From the NCBI GenBank assembly GCA_016182435.1, contig JACPGN010000063.1, forward strand, positions 1 to 9,127: a stretch of DNA of 9,127 nt, written 5' to 3'. Below, piece by piece: positions 1 to 8,862 of the stretch; the stretch's first letter is position 1; the number at the start of each line of letters is the position of its first letter. The DNA is from Lentisphaerota bacterium (lineage in GTDB: Bacteria; Verrucomicrobiota; Kiritimatiellia; JAAZAB01). Made by a program: the position numbers and the translations under genes. Below the pieces are notes generated by a model. It did not search any database, was not told the DNA's origin, and saw only the letters and a list, made by a program, of their open reading frames with translations.

Positions 1-1533
1 GTCCACGCTGGAATACCCGGCGCCGACCATGAACTGCCCGGTGCGCTTTTCTTCGACCTCGAAGACGAGGTCGTCGAGCGCCGGATCAAGCGTTTCGCGG
101 GGGAAGGCATTGACGGTTTCAAAGAAGCCCAGATTACGCAGGACATTTTCGCTGCGCCGGATGTTCACCTGGTTATACAGCTCGCCCGGCCGGATCAGTA
201 ACTCTCTGCGGATGACTTTGTCCTTGGTGCGGGTGTTTCCGCGGATATCAACATAGCGGATATTGACCAGGCTGCCTTCGGTAATGTCAAACTGAATATC
301 CACCACGGCGCCGGTCAATCGGGGCTTGAGCAGCGGTTTGACCATGGCGCGCATATACCCGCGGCTCTGGTAGTAGTCCCGCAGGTCATTGGCTGTTTTC
401 TGGATAAGTCCCATTGAGGCGATGGCGCCGGTCTTGAGCCGAACCACAGCAAGGAGATTGGACTCGGCGAACAGCTTGACGCCTTGCAGGCTGAGCGCGC
501 CGACGCGATACTGAGCGCCCTCTTCGATGGCATAAACGGCTTCCAGCTTGCCGCGCGCATAGGCGCGCACCTGCGGCTCGCCAATGCGGGCATCGAGATA
601 GCCGTGATTCTGGTAGAGCGCGCGCAACAACTCGCGATCGGCGTCAAGCTCTTCCGGCTCATAGACGCCGCGTTTGGTGAAAAAGGAGAAGATGTTCCAG
701 AGCCGCGGCTTGAGCGCCGCTTCCAGCTCCTCGGGCGGCACCGAAAGCTCCGCGACGGCCCGCTGGCGCCTGATGCCGGCCTTCAGGCGTTGCCAGGCGT
801 TGGGCGGCGCATAAGTATTGCCGGTAAAAGCCACTTTCCGCAGACTGGCGCGCTGCCCCTCCTTGACCGTCGCGGCAACCTGGGCAAAGGCGTTCGATTC
901 ATTCAGGTTGATCACCCAGGTGAAGTTGGCGTCATGATAATAGCGCTGGTGATACTCCGCCAATACCTTGCGGGACTGCACGCTCATGACGGCGTCATCC
1001 ACAAAATCGCCGACGGCCAGGTCCAGCCATTGGCGGATCTTTTTTTCGCCTATGGCTTCGGCGCCAAGCACGCTCACGGGCTTTTCCAGCCGGGGCCGCG
1101 GCGCGACCACATAAGTCAGGTCAAAAGCATCCGGCTTATCCTTGACCGGCGTAAGCTCGGAATCCACGAAGGAAAAACGCCCGGTATCCAGCAGGGTCCG
1201 CACGTCGCGGGTGATCCGGCGCTGATCAACTTCGTCGCCGGAGTGAACGCTTAAGTACCCGAAGACAAAGGCCTCGTCCGGCAACGTGAAGGTGCGCGAG
1301 ATTACTTTAACCTCGCGAATTAAGGCGGCGGCCGGGCTGGCCGCCGGCAGGCTGAACAAGGTAGCCGCCAGCAGATAAGCAAGTCCTGCGCAGCGGCCTC
1401 GAGTGTAGCGCGTTATTGATTCCTTGACATAAGGTAGGGTCCGTTCGCCGAACGGACCGCGGCGGTTTCGGCCCGCCTGCAACGCTATGCGTAGCATTGC
1501 GGGCAGGCGAAACCGCCCTACCAGGTGCGTCAT
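1..1533 (-). CDS. bamA: BamA, outer-membrane protein assembly factor (C-terminal barrel cut off by window edge)
   Basis: BamA is the central Omp85-family subunit of the machine that folds and inserts beta-barrel proteins into the outer membrane. The 511 codons visible here give a leader with a hydrophobic stretch around residues 49-66 and a likely Ala-rich cleavage site near residue 70. Five POTRA domains follow at roughly 71-136, 138-212, 228-328, 340-418 and 422-497. POTRA5 has the typical VDIRGNTRTKDKVIRREL and LRNLGFFETV segments, then VEEKRTGQFMVGAGYSS, where the barrel begins. The rest of the barrel lies beyond position 1. The ATG at 1533 is chosen because AAGG lies five bases upstream; the frame has no stop back to the end of dnaB, and an ATG at 1497 is an alternative. 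Residues 5-34 are encoded by a palindromic repeat, making the leader abnormally long. The gene follows dnaB by about 95 bp. Family assignment is firm; the start is uncertain. Confidence 0.9.
   Translation of the reverse strand, partial: MTHLVGRFRLPAMLRIALQAGRNRRGPFGERTLPYVKESITRYTRGRCAGLAYLLAATLFSLPAASPAAALIREVKVISRTFTLPDEAFVFGYLSVHSGDEVDQRRITRDVRTLLDTGRFSFVDSELTPVKDKPDAFDLTYVVAPRPRLEKPVSVLGAEAIGEKKIRQWLDLAVGDFVDDAVMSVQSRKVLAEYHQRYYHDANFTWVINLNESNAFAQVAATVKEGQRASLRKVAFTGNTYAPPNAWQRLKAGIRRQRAVAELSVPPEELEAALKPRLWNIFSFFTKRGVYEPEELDADRELLRALYQNHGYLDARIGEPQVRAYARGKLEAVYAIEEGAQYRVGALSLQGVKLFAESNLLAVVRLKTGAIASMGLIQKTANDLRDYYQSRGYMRAMVKPLLKPRLTGAVVDIQFDITEGSLVNIRYVDIRGNTRTKDKVIRRELLIRPGELYNQVNIRRSENVLRNLGFFETVNAFPRETLDPALDDLVFEVEEKRTGQFMVGAGYSSVD
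1433..1522. repeat. 90-bp nested palindromic element inside the bamA leader
   Basis: The ends are inverted (GGTAGGG at 1433-1439, CCCTACC at 1516-1522). Inside lie a perfect 10-bp inverted pair (GGCGGTTTCG at 1461-1470, CGAAACCGCC at 1508-1517) and a 38-bp imperfect palindrome at 1471-1508. A separate 21-bp hairpin at 1438-1458 (arms GGTCCGTTC and GAACGGACC) breaks the symmetry of the left arm. The 38-bp core recurs exactly, in the opposite orientation, at 5085-5122. The element is 90 bp, so it keeps the bamA frame and contributes 30 residues (VGRFRLPAML... to ...GERTLP). No clear target duplication is visible. Confidence 0.85.
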
Positions 1534-1628
1534 AGATGCCTTGTTGCGCCTAAAGCAAAAGTAAAGAAGCGTTAGACGCACAACACTAAAGAGCGAACAC
1601 CGTTTGCCGGGCAAGCTTGCCCCACTAA

Positions 1629-3095
1629 TCATGCTTCCCCTTCCAACACGCTGAGGGCCTCCTCGCCGAGGACGGCCGGCGCCATGCTTTCAAAGCGGAT
1701 GACTTCTTCGCGAAAGACGAGCCTGATCCGGCCGGTGGGACCGTTACGCTGTTTGGCGACAATGACTTGCGCCACGTTGGGATTGGCATCCAAGTCGTCG
1801 CCGCCGTAGCCGCTGTCCAACGCCTGCTTGTCTTTGGTGTCTTCCCGATATTTGCTGGGCCGGTAGAGGAGACAGACCACATCGGCATCCTGCTCGATGG
1901 CGCCGGAGTCGCGCAGGTCAGCCAGGCGCGGCTCGCCTTCGCGATCGCGGGCTTCCGGGGCGCGATTGAGCTGGCTGAGCGCCAGCACCGGAATTTTCAA
2001 TTCCTTGGCCATGTTTTTCAGCGAGCCGGAAATGAAAGCTATTTCCTGCTGGCGGCCCTCGCGACTGCGCTCGCGGGCATGCAGCAGTTGGAGGTAGTCC
2101 ACGACCAGCAGCTCGATGCCGTGCCGTTTTTTCATGCGGCGGGCCCGGGCGCGCAATTCCAGAATTTCCAGTCCGCCGGTGTCATCCAGGAAAATCGGCG
2201 CCTTCATCATGACATCGGCCGCCTGCATGAGCAGGCCATGGCTGGCCGGTGAGATCATGCCGGCGGCAATTTTATGGGCGGGCACGGCGGCATGACTGCT
2301 GAGCATGCGCAGGACAAGTTGTTCGCGGGCCATTTCCAGGCTGAAGATTCCCACCGGCCGGGGCTGGTTATCAGCCCGGCCCAGGGCAACCTGCTCGACG
2401 ATATTCATGGCCAAGGAAGTTTTGCCCATCGAAGGTCGTCCGGCCAGCACGATGAGTTCCTCGTTGTGCAACCCGAGCAGCATTTCATCGAGATCCTTGA
2501 AACCCGTCGGAATGCCGCTGAGGCCTTTCCCGGTTAACTTGATCTGCTCAATGAGCCCCATGGTTTGCTTTACCGTGGCGCTCCAGGGCAGCATGGCGCC
2601 GTGGGGCGTCCCGGAAATACCAAAGAAATCCTGCTCCACCTCGGCCAGAATATGGTCGGCATCCTGATCGGACGTGCAGCATTTATGCTCGGCGAGTCGC
2701 GCGCAGTCCACAATCCGCCGCAGGAGATGCTGCTGACGAACCATGTCTATATAGTATTCGGCGTGGGCCGCGGTGGGGATGGCGTCCAGCAAGTGGTTGA
2801 GGTAGGCGGCGCCGCCGATGGCATCCAGCTTGCCCTGGCCGGAAAGACGGTCGGCCAGGGTAAGCACATCAATAGGCCGCAGCGCCTTGGCCATGTCCTG
2901 CATGGCGGCGTAGATGACCTGGTGGGCGCGGCCGTAAAAGGAGTCGGCGGCGATTTGCCTCTCGATGCACAGATCCATCACTTTGGCCGCATCCAGGAGA
3001 ACGGCGCCCAGCACGCCCCGCTCAGCGTCTTCATTGAATAAAGACTTGCGTTCCTGATTCGCCACCGCGCCGGGGGCGCCGCTTGCCGTGGACAT
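1629..3095 (-). CDS. dnaB: Replicative DNA helicase DnaB
   Basis: DnaB is the hexameric, ATP-driven helicase that unwinds DNA at the replication fork and recruits primase. The 488-residue product has the usual length. An N-terminal DnaB domain covers about residues 20-125, and a linker leads to the RecA-like C-terminal domain, which starts at about GIPTGFKDLDEML (194-206). Visible motifs are Walker A GRPSMGKTS (219-227), FSLEM (251-255) with the catalytic Glu254, the Walker B-like VVDYLQLL (331-338), ALSQLNR (372-378), and DLRDSGAIEQDADVV (393-407). AKQRNGPTG at 447-455 carries the arginine-finger region. There is no intein. The ATG is preceded by TAGGAG, which overlaps the end of rplI; the spacer is only 4 bp, so the two genes are probably translationally coupled. 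All key motifs look intact. Confidence 0.97.
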   Translation of the reverse strand: MSTASGAPGAVANQERKSLFNEDAERGVLGAVLLDAAKVMDLCIERQIAADSFYGRAHQVIYAAMQDMAKALRPIDVLTLADRLSGQGKLDAIGGAAYLNHLLDAIPTAAHAEYYIDMVRQQHLLRRIVDCARLAEHKCCTSDQDADHILAEVEQDFFGISGTPHGAMLPWSATVKQTMGLIEQIKLTGKGLSGIPTGFKDLDEMLLGLHNEELIVLAGRPSMGKTSLAMNIVEQVALGRADNQPRPVGIFSLEMAREQLVLRMLSSHAAVPAHKIAAGMISPASHGLLMQAADVMMKAPIFLDDTGGLEILELRARARRMKKRHGIELLVVDYLQLLHARERSREGRQQEIAFISGSLKNMAKELKIPVLALSQLNRAPEARDREGEPRLADLRDSGAIEQDADVVCLLYRPSKYREDTKDKQALDSGYGGDDLDANPNVAQVIVAKQRNGPTGRIRLVFREEVIRFESMAPAVLGEEALSVLEGEA

Positions 3096-3910: not shown

Positions 3911-4045
3911 GGCGGATCCGCCTATGGCGGAAACCACTGATTACACTGATAACACGGATGGGGAAAGCCAGCCCCTATATTCCTTATCAGTGCTATCCGT
4001 GCCATCCGTGGTTCCCGCCTGGGCGGGTCCGCTTCAGGCGGAAAC
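3911..4045. repeat. Composite repeat in ssb-rpsR spacer: 24-bp direct repeats flanking inverted 9-nt units
   Basis: Two 24-bp direct repeats, 3911-3934 and 4022-4045, share the pattern GGCGG(A/G)TCCGC...GGCGGAAAC. Between them lie three 9-nt units CAC(T/G)GATNN at 3935-3961. Three more occur in opposite orientation at 3984-4010, closed by AACCAC/GTGGTT ends, giving a large imperfect inverted repeat with a 22-nt loop. A CCCGCC-TG-GGCGGG hairpin lies at 4014-4027. CACNGATNN arrays are, from memory, common intergenic repeats in environmental bacteria. Short open frames across this spacer reflect the 9-nt periodicity and are not genes. Confidence 0.85.
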
Positions 4046-4644: not shown

Positions 4645-4750
4645 GTGGGCAGGCCGTTGTCCGTCTTCTCCGGTCTGTCGTCCCGCCTCTGGCGGGATAA
4701 ATCTGGCGCTCGCCCCGCGTTACGCGGGGTCAGTTGTCTGTCGTCCGTCT
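4645..4750. repeat. Hairpins and GTTGTC-type repeats between ssb and rpsF, running into the rpsF 3' end
   Basis: Two perfect hairpins lie here: TCCCGCC-TCT-GGCGGGA at 4681-4697 and CCCCGCG-TTA-CGCGGGG at 4713-4729. The loop of the second one is the rpsF stop codon (TAA on the minus strand). Around them are related stretches GTTGTCCGTCTTC (from about 4652) and GTTGTCTGTCGTCCGTCTTC (4733-4752). The stretch at 4730-4743 is found again, 14 of 14 bases inverted, in the Rhs gene at 7371-7384. Neither hairpin has a T-run, so they are not clear intrinsic terminators. Confidence 0.8.
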
Positions 4751-5031: not shown

Positions 5032-5065
5032 GTTCTTTCCTCTCATCCTGCCGCTTGTTGTAATG

Positions 5066-5156
5066 TCAGTCTTGTGGTCTGATTGCCTGCCCGCAATGCT
5101 ACGCATAGCGTTGCAGGCGGGCGGCATTGAATTTCGCAACCTACCCACAAGACTGA
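5066..5156. repeat. Nested palindrome between pth and rpsF; second copy of the bamA-leader core
   Basis: Perfect 12-bp inverted arms, TCAGTCTTGTGG at 5066-5077 and CCACAAGACTGA at 5145-5156, enclose a 38-bp imperfect palindrome at 5085-5122. The 38-bp core is the exact reverse complement of 1471-1508 in the bamA leader. Its stem pairs about 17 bases per side with a few G-T or mismatched positions. On the transcript it lies in the pth-rpsF spacer, upstream of the rpsF ribosome-binding site. It could damp transcription or protect an mRNA end, but no T-run follows. Confidence 0.85.
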
Positions 5157-5195
5157 ACGGTTACCCTCGTTTTCGATGTTACTTGCCCGGCGCCT

Positions 5196-5777
5196 TCAGG
5201 CGTTAAACTTATTCATGGCGGCCGGGGCTCCGTTGGCCACCAGGTAGAGCGCCGCATCGGCAGCCCTTGCGACCATGGCGCGCACGGTATCCCGCAGTTC
5301 GGCCGCAAAAGGCTTCAGCACGTGCGCAACCAGATCCGTACCTGCCCCGTGCCCCGCGGGGTTTTCCCTTCGGCCAATGCCCAGTCGCAAGCGGGCAAAC
5401 TGGTCCTGGCCCAAATGCTCGAGAATGGAAAGCAAACCCTTGTGCCCGCCGCCGCCGCCACCCACCCGAATGCGCAGGCGGCCCAGCGGCAGATCAGCGT
5501 CATCGAGAATAATGAGCACTTCGCTCAGGCTGATTCCCAGCGAGCGGGTTAAAGCCGCCACCACCGGCCCGCTGCGGTTCATGTAGCCCCCCGGTTTGAC
5601 CAGCAGGAGCTTCTCGGTGTCAAGCATTGTCCGCGCCAGGCGGGCGTGAAACCGGAAACTGCGCCGCAGCGCGCAGCCACAGCGCTCAGCCAGGGCGTCA
5701 ATGACCGCAAAGCCGACGTTATGCGGCGTGTGCTCATATTCTTTACCGGGATTGCCCAAACCCACAATTAGTTTCAC
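5196..5777 (-). CDS. pth: Peptidyl-tRNA hydrolase
   Basis: Pth cleaves the ester bond of peptidyl-tRNAs that drop off the ribosome and so recycles tRNA; it is essential in most bacteria. From the GTG at 5777 the product is 193 residues, the normal size. It opens with KLIVGLGNPGKEYEHTPHNVGF, which carries Asn9 and the catalytic His19. KPGGYMNRSG contains Asn67, and ILDDADLPLG contains the catalytic Asp at 92. GGGGHKGLLSI and FARLRLGIGR follow. At the position of E. coli Asn114 this protein has Lys113. The GTG is chosen by homology of the N-terminus and a purine-rich GGAAAGTGAGG just upstream. The frame stays open to 5981, but those extra 68 codons are an Rhs fragment and repeat sequence, not Pth. 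The gene heads the housekeeping cluster. Confidence 0.95.
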   Translation of the reverse strand: MKLIVGLGNPGKEYEHTPHNVGFAVIDALAERCGCALRRSFRFHARLARTMLDTEKLLLVKPGGYMNRSGPVVAALTRSLGISLSEVLIILDDADLPLGRLRIRVGGGGGGHKGLLSILEHLGQDQFARLRLGIGRRENPAGHGAGTDLVAHVLKPFAAELRDTVRAMVARAADAALYLVANGAPAAMNKFNA

Positions 5778-5822
5778 GACCTCACTTTCCAGGAAGCCCG
5801 GTAAGTGATCCTTTTCTTTTCC

Positions 5823-5884
5823 GGAAATTTGATTCAACCTGCCCCACATGTCATAGTCATAGGCAACGCTGTAGTCGGATACGG
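5823..5884 (-). pseudogene. Leftover Rhs YD-repeat fragment, in frame with pth
   Basis: Minus-strand translation just upstream of pth reads DYSVAYDYDMWGRLNQIS, a standard YD (Rhs) repeat. It matches QVAYGYDAFGRLNQIS (residues 48-62) of the Rhs protein further upstream. The DNA is similar as well (compare 5827-5870 with 8685-8730). There are no flanking repeats of the same gene, so it is a remnant. It has no stop before the pth GTG. Confidence 0.8.
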
Positions 5885-5889
5885 TCATT

Positions 5890-6110
5890 TCGGGATTCGA
5901 TACCGTGCTCCGCCATAGCGCTTCGCATGGCTTCGTGCCGACGCCAAGCTCCGCCGTAGCGGCTTCGCCCAGGCGAGTCACCGCCGACTACGCTCCGCCT
6001 CAGCGGATCCGCAAGGGTGGAAACACTCACTTCCGGCTCGTTCTGCGTAGCTTCTCAGCGTAGCAGGACTGGCGGCTTCCGCCAAAGGCGGATCCGCCAA
6101 GCGGAACCCT
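5890..6110. repeat. Mosaic of GC-rich palindromic repeats between pth and the membrane-protein gene
   Basis: The stretch 5778-6270 holds no intact gene. Its middle is built of short repeated words: CTCCGCC(A/G)TAGCG twice, CGCTTCGCATGG-type arms, and CAGCGGATCCGCAAGGGTGG at 6001-6020 with GCGGATCC and GGAAAC shared with the 24-bp repeats at 3911 and 4022. At 6078-6106 a palindrome with TTCCGC/GCGGAA ends surrounds a perfect GGCGGATCCGCC (6088-6099). From 6111 to 6204 I see nothing recognisable. A weak GTCCC/GGGAC hairpin lies at 6211-6230, about 40 bp beyond the stop of the membrane-protein gene; it has no T-run and is not a convincing terminator. Confidence 0.65.
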
Positions 6111-6681: not shown

Positions 6682-8862
6682 TTATTGAACCTCAGTAATA
6701 TCACGCCCATCTATTCGAAATGTACGCGTATCTGAGCTTAAATCTTTGCCTTTATTTGCTCCTTCGGTGCAGGGAAGATAATAATTGAAGCGGAGAGTAT
6801 ATGGCCAAGGGTATGGATAATGCCCAGCCCTTGTATCACCAGGCTGATCATATATATGGATATCTCCGGGTAAAAGCTCCTCACTACCGCTTCCATCAGG
6901 TATATGAATCCACGTCGCCGATCTTCGAACCTTAGCTTTCTTACAGCAGTTTGCTTCTTCTTGGCTCGCAGTGTACCACACATCGATAACATCTTGTTCG
7001 TCAGGACCACCGTCGGTTATGTTACTATGCCAAGCCCCATGATCAATCATTCCGTTCAAATCAATCCTGTTTACCGGATCATTATGGAATGCCTGCGATA
7101 GATTTAAAGGATTCCAATCCGTATTTAAACTCTTAAATTGATTCCGTATAGCTGATGTCACAGCTTTATTTAATAATACAATAGCCTTCTCCCCAATTGG
7201 ATCTCTTGCGAGCCAGCGGCCAAGATTGGGGCTGTAGGGGCGGAGCTGGTACATGACGAGTGCGGTTTCCTCGTCATAATACTTGGTGCTAAAACGCCAG
7301 ACGTTGTCGAACGCTTCCGGGCCGGTGGCGACGATCAGTTCGCCGAAGGGACTGTATTCGTAGTGGGCCGCGACAGACAACTGAGGACTGACGACAGACG
7401 ACAGAAGAAGTTCGGAAACATTACCATTCCCATCATAGATGTAGAGAAAAGCGCTGTTGGAGATGCTGGATCCGTCGCAGGCGCCCAAGGTGTCGCCGTG
7501 GGCCTGATGCGCCGGCCAGGCGCTTTCATTGATTCTGATGGTTTTCCTGTTTTCCGGATTGCCGGGCGGACGATGACAGACGACCAGTTTCCCATTGTCG
7601 TCATAGAAACGCGTCACGCTGCGGTAGCGCGCCAGCAGACCACCCACGCCACCCGCACCCTGGAGGGAGCGTGACAAATCCAAGCCCCAGATGAACGAAT
7701 CTGCGATACGGTGAAACGGCGAGTGGTCAATCTCCTGAATCATGTTCCAGGAATCATAGAGGAAAGAGCTGATACTTGAAAGTTGAAACTCGTTACTGGT
7801 GGCGTTCCAAGCGTAAACCTTCTTACCCACGCGGCGGCTCATGTAGTCATATGCAAATTCAAGTTTAACCCGTGGAACTGACGACGGGAGATTGGTCAAG
7901 GTTTCCGCTCCGATCAATCTGTTTTCTGCGTCCCACGAGTAATTGAATCGGCCGTCGGACAGAAGATTGCCATCGTCATCGTAGTTGAATGTTTCCGGCG
8001 TTTTAGCCACGAAAACGTGCCCAGTCTCGGAACTGACAATATCCGGATCATTCGTGCCCGGCGGGTTATATACGCCGATGACGTTGATTTCCTGCCAGAC
8101 GGCGGAGAAATCATTTGTCACGTCAAGACCACGGTGCCAGTATTTTTCGTGGCGAGTGGTTGGCAGGTCGTTCACGGTTACGGTTATGTTTGTTTCGGCT
8201 GAGCCGATGATGTCTATCAAGTCGGCTACCGTCCGCTGGCTATACTGGTTAAGGTTATTTGCCGTGTAGATGCTCTCTTCATTATCCCGGCTGGAAGAAG
8301 TCCGGTTGCCGATGTTGTCATACATATAGGCAAAGCCCTGGCCAGTTACTGGGTCAGAGGTATCATTCAAATTTGCTCCCCAGAATCTATCGCCGACAGT
8401 CACTTCACTCCTTGAATTATAGTCGTAGAGATTGAAGGCCGGGCCGGTCTCGAAGGCAGAACCAGAGTGTTTAACCGATGTCCTTCTTCCACCGGCGTCG
8501 TTGGCGTAATCAAACTGTGAAAGCGTCTCGCTGTCAACCTGATTTTTTATCTGAGTCAAAAGATTGCGGTTTGCCTCGTATGTTCTGGTGACTTGCAAAC
8601 CGGAAGCCGAGTCGCTGTAACCGGAGATGAGATCGGAATTGGCAAGATAGGAATATGAAGCTTGAAATTGGAAATTGGAAATTTGATTTAATCTGCCAAA
8701 AGCGTCATAACCATAAGCAACTTGACAATCGCTTCCCAGGCCAAAGCCGGTTGACCTTCCATAACTGTCATAGGACCGGTCAATAACATTGGTTCCGGCG
8801 GAAGAAACAATAGTTTCAGTATCAAGCAGGAGGCCAGTATAGGCGAAGGTATGAGTGCTCAC
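6682..8862 (-). CDS. Rhs/YD-repeat protein with core domain and variable C-terminal tip, 5' truncated
   Basis: Rhs proteins form a beta-cage that encloses a C-terminal domain, often a toxin used against neighbouring cells. YD repeats are plain through the first 500 residues (RSYDSYGRSTGF, VAYGYDAFGRLNQIS, FAYMYDNIGNRTSS, FNYDDDGNLLSDG, FNYSWDAENRLIGAE). The core domain follows (YEYSPFGELIVATG, WRFSTKYYDEETALVMYQLR, YSPNLGRWLARDPIG at 543-557). After DPIG about 25 unusual residues precede NDPVNRIDLNG (594-604), then a 122-residue tip that I do not recognise, with Cys639, Cys640 and Cys698. Base composition turns AT-rich at about DPIG. The frame is open upstream to 8994 with further Rhs sequence (SYSYNSAGDLTGIDYSD) but no start codon. 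The GTG at 8862 has no ribosome-binding site, so this is probably a 5'-truncated gene that may not be expressed. No signal peptide is present. Confidence 0.85.
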   Translation of the reverse strand: MSTHTFAYTGLLLDTETIVSSAGTNVIDRSYDSYGRSTGFGLGSDCQVAYGYDAFGRLNQISNFQFQASYSYLANSDLISGYSDSASGLQVTRTYEANRNLLTQIKNQVDSETLSQFDYANDAGGRRTSVKHSGSAFETGPAFNLYDYNSRSEVTVGDRFWGANLNDTSDPVTGQGFAYMYDNIGNRTSSSRDNEESIYTANNLNQYSQRTVADLIDIIGSAETNITVTVNDLPTTRHEKYWHRGLDVTNDFSAVWQEINVIGVYNPPGTNDPDIVSSETGHVFVAKTPETFNYDDDGNLLSDGRFNYSWDAENRLIGAETLTNLPSSVPRVKLEFAYDYMSRRVGKKVYAWNATSNEFQLSSISSFLYDSWNMIQEIDHSPFHRIADSFIWGLDLSRSLQGAGGVGGLLARYRSVTRFYDDNGKLVVCHRPPGNPENRKTIRINESAWPAHQAHGDTLGACDGSSISNSAFLYIYDGNGNVSELLLSSVVSPQLSVAAHYEYSPFGELIVATGPEAFDNVWRFSTKYYDEETALVMYQLRPYSPNLGRWLARDPIGEKAIVLLNKAVTSAIRNQFKSLNTDWNPLNLSQAFHNDPVNRIDLNGMIDHGAWHSNITDGGPDEQDVIDVWYTASQEEANCCKKAKVRRSATWIHIPDGSGSEELLPGDIHIYDQPGDTRAGHYPYPWPYTLRFNYYLPCTEGANKGKDLSSDTRTFRIDGRDITEVQ
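7369..7407 (-). repeat. Dispersed repeat read as coding sequence inside the Rhs gene
   Basis: The segment encodes SSVVSPQLSVA (about residues 488-498) between the YD repeat ending NVSELL and the core start HYEYSPFGE. Its DNA is a run of GACAGAC and GACTGAC words unlike the surrounding code. CGACAGACAACTGA at 7371-7384 matches, inverted, 4730-4743 at the 3' end of rpsF. The frame is kept. Confidence 0.7.
7477..7578 (-). other. CHxPPGN...HGDTLGxC motif embedded in the Rhs protein
   Basis: Residues 429-462 read CHRPPGNPENRKTI, then AWPAHQAHGDTLGAC. From memory this matches a short Cys/His motif (CH-PPGNP--TI---A--AH-AHGDTLG-C) that recurs in many secreted bacterial proteins and has no assigned function. 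Cys429, His430, His452, His455 and Cys462 are conserved positions of the motif and could bind a metal or form a disulfide. It interrupts a YD repeat between TRFYDDNGKLVV and SAFLYIYDGNGNVSE. Confidence 0.7.

Follow-up and report, generated by a model that had tools for sequence, protein, structure and literature searches.

Three nested palindromic shells in the leader region of a bamA gene from a Lentisphaerota bacterium

The bamA gene of a Lentisphaerota bacterium (GenBank assembly GCA_016182435.1, contig JACPGN010000063.1) contains a palindromic stretch upstream of the hydrophobic core of its signal peptide. This locus raises three questions: what the stretch is; how it came to lie in an essential outer-membrane gene; and from which codon the gene is read. 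The window, which is the whole stretch of DNA analysed (9,127 nt), carries rpsF, ssb, rpsR, rplI, dnaB, and bamA in one direction. An earlier note, made from the letters of the window alone, had described a 90-nt palindromic element with inverted ends on the bamA strand, in frame with the gene, and this description is upheld. Folded as single-stranded DNA, the element reaches -37.8 kcal/mol as compared to -19.97 (sd 2.74) for 200 shuffled sequences (z -6.51; none of the 200 folded as well). No stop codon interrupts it in the bamA frame, and its length is divisible by three. Taken alone, it is open in two of the three frames on each strand.

The five closest BamA relatives (73-79% identity) come from metagenome-assembled genomes labelled Lentisphaerae, Kiritimatiellaeota, Kiritimatiellae or Verrucomicrobia, labels that point most probably to a Kiritimatiellota-like host. 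In all five, the last bases of the bamA ATG form the stop codon of dnaB (ATGA), and none of the five has an insertion at that site. More broadly, a 4-nt overlap between the bamA start and the upstream stop is present in 18 of 22 relatives (one with GTG), a count that depends on the start picked by hand from a candidate list in each relative. L011 and L014 overlap in a different way, and L019 and L020 are without an upstream open reading frame (ORF) of 150 codons ending at the bamA start. For this count L022 (24 residues matched) was left unscored, L048 was added, L047 (a reverse-strand locus) was dropped, and the further bamA loci L050-L072 were left out. The counterpart of the overlapping start in the window is ATG 1632, which lies in the BamA frame and is preceded by GGAAGG at 1639-1644.

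This has a direct consequence for ATG 1533, which the earlier note took as the likely start. The overlap start at 1632 (18 of 22 relatives, the five nearest included) and the insertion-free nearest relatives rule out ATG 1533 as the ancestral start of bamA. The database gene call for bamA in the window (P0001, 511 aa) also begins at 1533. As this called start sits inside the insertion, automatic start calls beside such elements can be wrong. Likewise, the proposal that orthologues would be without exactly residues 5-34 gives way to a larger difference: the nearest orthologues lack the whole block. The 90 bp are not the whole insertion either, since their flanks recur at unrelated loci; they form the middle of three shells within a unit of about 189 bp (Table 1).

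Table 1. Features of the bamA leader region, in window coordinates
Feature	Position	Strand	Support or remark
Outer shell: terminal-repeat (MITE-like) element, about 189 bp	1402..1590	(-)	Ends set by eye, a few bases uncertain
Left terminal repeat region	1556..1590	(-)	Resembles stretches of G001, G004 and G009 (lowest genome E 1.4e-6)
Right terminal repeat region	1402..1432	(-)	Common to L073 and L074
Middle shell: GTAG-tagged head-to-head hairpin dimer (54 bp), 90 bp with inner insert	1433..1522	(-)	
Second hairpin of the dimer	1438..1458	(-)	Fold; copies differ by compensated stem changes
Inner shell: 36-nt palindrome in the first hairpin	1473..1508	(-)	Position uncertain within 3 nt
bamA reading frame, which begins at the conserved start and extends beyond the left end of the window	1..1632	(-)	544 aa open frame; POTRA domains
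Conserved bamA start ATG, overlapping the dnaB stop (ATGA)	1630..1632	(-)	Overlap in 18/22 relatives
Alternative start ATG inside the outer shell	1531..1533	(-)	Start of the earlier note and of the database gene call
Alternative start ATG inside the inner shell	1495..1497	(-)	
Signal-peptide hydrophobic core	1339..1389	(-)	Residues 82-98 from 1632; hydropathy maximum 84-95; aligned by eye with L001

The middle shell belongs to a dispersed family. The window dimer ends in GGTAGGG...CCCTACC, and the corresponding columns (1-7 and 48-54) are invariant in 20 aligned copies. A search for copies, as proposed in the earlier note, was made in the genomes of relatives: the pattern GGTAGGG-N(25-55)-CCCTACC occurs at 49 places in the nearest relative, G001, as compared to 1 for the reversed control pattern. 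The same search gives 4 places each in G002 and G004, 2 in G008, 1 each in G005 and G009, and 0 in G003, with controls of 0 to 2; the near relatives outside G001 are therefore poor in the dimer. Among 116 relatives of G001, 42 match the pattern; several of these do not exceed the control count, whereas some have 10 to 29 places. The collected G001 copies number 53 distinct dimers after deduplication by 30-nt flanks, which may drop true copies; 37 of these are 54 bp long, and 45 have a length divisible by three.

Comparison of the copies supports the predicted stems. Across the 20 aligned copies (19 distinct), 99.3% of 437 stem cells are paired, 79 cells are changed on both sides as compared to 29.8 after shuffling, and the covariation score is 0.450 as compared to 0.130, a value reached in 0 of 500 shuffles. 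The number of pairs with a double change (11 versus 9.5 shuffled) and of pair types (15 versus 14.7) show little or no excess. A search of known RNA families in Rfam gave no match at gathering score.

The inner shell can be placed by comparison with an empty counterpart. The window element equals a G001 54-mer (G001:C59:5185-5238) at 54 of 54 positions, and its first hairpin carries in addition a block of exactly 36 nt. This block also fills L075, L076, and L077. As a palindrome it is dispersed in all seven genomes searched, G001 having 65 copies and six relatives between 2 and 42 apiece (controls 0), and it recurs in the window at 5085-5122.

The window element is one of a series. Dissection was restricted to filled elements longer than 72 bp, namely that of the window and 12 others. 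In ten of the G001 elements (L075, L076, L165, L204, L217-L219, L222, L225, L227), palindromes lie at or beside the dimer hairpins with 53-54 of 54 host positions intact. Besides the 36-nt block, the inserts are: a 45-nt palindrome (L075, L076, L219, L225); a first 42-nt kind (L204, L222, L227, L210); a second 42-nt kind, which the aligner splits as 20 plus 22 (L165, L217, L218); and a 33-nt palindrome (L222). Two elements depart from this: L210 keeps 49 of 54 positions and contains a piece of 31 nt, and L213 has one base fewer than L222 (199 versus 200). It is from these exact filled and empty pairs that we infer mobility. As the 54-bp dimer occurs both empty and with 36, 42, 45 or 33 bp added, the insertion steps can be read base by base, which makes target choice and the enzyme testable.

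The five intact nested insert types (36, 42, 42, 45, and 33) and the 54-bp dimer all have lengths that are multiples of three. For the five inserts, chance would give this about once in 243 if the lengths were independent, although the pattern was noticed post hoc. One explanation, which we consider unlikely, is that the 33-45 bp palindromes form a separate class of minimal mobile hairpins. These would nest in or beside the hairpins of other mobile palindromes, and their lengths would be kept to multiples of three, making the nesting frame-neutral where the host element lies in a gene. If so, the bamA leader would be one outcome of a system by which essential genes acquire ready-made reading frames.

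The outer shell is seen through its flanks, both of which recur at unrelated loci. L073 of G001 is an empty copy whose outer flanks resemble those of the window on either side: 59 nt match at 98% on one side, a stretch that takes in part of the dimer, and 42 nt match at 88% on the opposite side. L074 has 69 nt in common with the window at 90%. The left end, around AACGCTTCTTTAC, is present in G001, G004, and G009 within elements whose centres carry other palindromes; further left-end matches (L124, L129, L130, L134, L135, L138) were discounted on visual inspection as chance similarities. The two ends of the window element align as inverted repeats starting AGTGT (shuffle p 0.0115), as do those of other members with p values of 0.0275 (L073), 0.001 (L095), and 0.068, which is not significant (L093). 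Terminal inverted repeats are thus present in the outer element, weakly in the window and L073, and with consistent ends. To the eye, TA bounds some copies at either end, with no clear case in the window, and no target duplication was recognised flanking the window element. By eye, the flanks of the G001 dimers fall into several shared end families, so that dimers appear to lie commonly within terminal-repeat elements; in one such dimer-bearing family the plain element is 125 bp.

Other repeats lie elsewhere in the window. At 5060-5164, just upstream of rpsF, is a second terminal-repeat element (TCAGTCTTGTGG...CCACAAGACTGA) in which the inner-shell palindrome (36-38 nt) stands alone. The called rpsF ORF (start 5148) crosses this element, and the likely start is near GTG AAA AAA TAT. 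A palindromic stretch at 4683-4729 (CCCGCC...GGCGGGATAAA...GCCCCGC...GCGGGG) looks, on visual comparison, like the nested 42-bp palindrome of L165, L217, and L218. Copies of another palindrome (GGCGGATCCGCC...GGCGGAA) occupy 3911-3935, 4021-4045, and 6074-6098. An ORF at 5196-5981 ends in a peptidyl-tRNA hydrolase-like part and has an in-frame upstream piece resembling a YD-repeat (Rhs-like) ORF at 6682-8862 (names by eye); this upstream piece and the YD-repeat ORF share a direct repeat (5823-5867 and 8677-8721, 78%).

The reading frame bears on how the insertion is tolerated. Of the six frames over the 189 bp, that of bamA alone is open. Mononucleotide shuffles are open in 437 of 5000 cases over the 189-bp length and in 266 of 5000 over 1629-1402; the open frame hence supports a translated leader but is too common by chance to prove translation. 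As the outer ends were set by eye, 189 is not a measured multiple of three, and preservation of the frame is instead judged from the conserved start, which stays in frame through the whole stretch. Read from 1632, the leader has about 103 residues, about 63 of them element-derived, leaving about 40 without the element; the leader of the closest relative has about 47 (cleavage sites by eye in both). The earlier estimate of a leader lengthened from about 40 to about 70 residues is accordingly right in its first figure, with about 103 in place of the second if 1632 is used.

Taken in aggregate, these data favour, with a probability of about 0.65, the following reading: a non-autonomous terminal-repeat element of about 189 bp, carrying the GTAG dimer and its 36-bp palindrome, inserted between the conserved start at 1632 and the signal-peptide core, leaving the frame open and the leader tolerated. 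The steps would likely involve: movement of the palindromes in trans by an enzyme, with insertion of one into another; arrival of the element, with one hairpin of its 54-bp dimer holding the 36-bp mobile palindrome, behind the start; and translation that can still begin at 1632 and pass through about 63 foreign codons before it reaches the signal peptide. Export of this longer, Arg-rich leader would then proceed normally, and signal peptidase would cut it off, leaving mature BamA unchanged. Removal of the foreign residues with the signal peptide would explain why the insertion is tolerated, and it may be nearly neutral.

The use of 1632 has one main competitor. Here, the insertion would have replaced the start, with bamA read from ATG 1533 or ATG 1497 and 1632 unused or minor. 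Both codons lie inside the larger element, which would then supply the start codon and the N-terminus. We regard this as the less probable course, though a substantial one. The database gene call begins at 1533, and AAGG stands directly upstream of that codon. In addition, the leader from 1632 contains a second hydrophobic stretch at residues 12-26, with a best 12-residue mean of 1.84 as compared to 2.03 for the signal core. This stretch could disturb export and so speaks against undisturbed export from 1632; a start at 1533 avoids it. Against an element-borne start, the stop-overlapping ATG 1632 is intact and in frame, with GGAAGG upstream, and none of the five nearest relatives has an ATG corresponding to 1533.

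A regulatory role for the stretch, in which long hairpins in the dnaB-bamA message would alter RNA stability or bamA translation and the open frame would be incidental, appears improbable. The very stable fold is consistent with such a role, as is the position of most collected dimers (43 of 53) outside long spanning ORFs, and the available text of PMC3733652 argues for transcription of many REPs and for their action as RNA. Against such a role, the element is absent in the nearest relatives, and the frame is kept open. Least probable is that repeats were wrongly joined when the metagenome contig was assembled: the host group is repeat-rich and the insertion is known from one contig (the database protein of the stretch has one member, from one contig), but the dnaB-bamA order and the stop-start overlap match those of relatives, and the stretch leaves the frame open.

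The in-frame position of the dimer has parallels in other genes, those of G001. A spanning ORF, defined as at least 120 codons with 20 codons on either side of the element, contains 10 of the 53 dimer copies; the other 43 have none. Comparison of eight of the ten ORFs with Pfam (all but L191 and L194) assigned four to a family. Two are clear cases of in-frame dimers within a gene: Pgi (L189:1145-2899) and MurD (L165:1644-3194). In the former, glucose-6-phosphate isomerase, residues 18-416 and 447-576 align to residues 7-405 and 409-545 of the 3nbu chain, with about 27 extra residues around the element at 423-442. In MurD, the element at 261-292 lies between stretches matched in 3lk7 (5-226 and 342-506). 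An LptE-like ORF carries a dimer near its N-terminus, and a vWA ORF with a dimer may be two genes.

Movement in trans calls for an enzyme, and none was found for the dimers or the terminal-repeat elements in the near-relative genomes searched. Y1_Tnp (IS200-like) genes occur at ten loci (L113-L122) in four of five near-relative drafts. GGTAGGG is present in one of these loci, and matches to dimer flanks are merely 12-18 nt (best E 0.003), which argues against a RAYT (Y1) mobiliser; no RAYT gene with these repeats on its flanks was found in the five draft genomes. The GGATCCGCC palindromes of the window are near Y1_Tnp genes at 0 of 10 loci, and the GGCGGATCCGCC...GGCGGAA palindrome is likewise absent from all ten. 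A DDE_3 (IS630-type) transposase is found in 0 of 7 genomes. A DUF6788 ORF in L094 has a terminal-repeat-like stretch about 160 bp away. The DUF6788 insertion sequence is nevertheless rejected as mobiliser: L162 and L163 share a different element end by eye, with the repeat outside it, and in L161 the ORF and the repeat are about 3.5 kb apart. Among the terminal-repeat matches examined, a non-exhaustive set, there was no autonomous copy or parent transposon.

A REPIN is a mobile unit of two inverted REPs, and REPINs are tied to RAYT transposases. The window dimer is like a REPIN in its two inverted hairpin units and unlike one in that no RAYT link was found here.

Prokaryotic MITEs, as described in the consulted part of PMC10969869, are short, have terminal inverted repeats and no transposase gene, and can fuse in frame with genes. 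The window element is like these in build, and unlike them in that neither a parent transposon nor a target duplication was identified here. The small mobile repeats of Haloquadratum, in the accessible portion of PMC3119063, have no transposase and are often integrated into other mobile elements; compared by description, they differ in being archaeal, about 110 bp long, and bounded by prominent terminal repeats. Our literature search found nothing on MITEs in Kiritimatiellota and, judged from titles and abstract starts, no bamA arrangement of this kind or palindromes nested in hairpin loops.

Rickettsia palindromic elements, with which the earlier note compared the locus, are palindromic inserts in frame within housekeeping genes, according to the passages seen of PMC10969869 and PMC3733652. 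By description, the likeness is in-frame insertion in functional genes (bamA; Pgi and MurD of G001). The differences are host, size class, and the distribution of copies: 10 of 53 in G001 lie in a spanning ORF, with two clear in-gene cases. The comparison thus holds for a dispersed in-frame palindrome in the leader of an essential gene, with comparable effect; the nearest family is that of the GTAG REP dimers.

GTAG REPs and their head-to-head dimers were described by Di Nocera, De Gregorio and Rocco in 2013 (PMC3733652). As far as the consulted text of that paper extends: GTAG REPs are abundant in Opitutus terrae, of the PVC group; dimers inside genes encode 20-30 residues, and N-terminal cases may be wrong starts; Anabaena GTAG-15 dimers lie inside long terminal palindromes; Bradyrhizobium GTAG-14 has self-complementary loops of up to 27 bp; and REPtrons can be missing, so that a linked RAYT is not an absolute criterion. 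The window dimer agrees with these accounts in its opposed hairpins, outer GTAG ends, compensated stems, many dispersed copies, PVC host, copies inside genes, and position inside terminal repeats, as in Anabaena. It differs from GTAG REP dimers with a RAYT in that a repeat-flanked RAYT gene was not found in the five genomes covered here, and from the dimers in that text in holding a further 36-bp mobile palindrome with an exact empty counterpart. No earlier description of three shells with exact empty counterparts was found in the portions of the literature searched. At this locus, repeated palindromes are nested to a depth of three within an essential outer-membrane gene, and the reading frame of the gene remains open. 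By structure, copy number in G001, and host group, GTAG REP dimers fit it best among known systems, and the bamA leader insertion is a real, in-frame, three-shell arrangement of mobile palindromes of known type, not a new mechanism.
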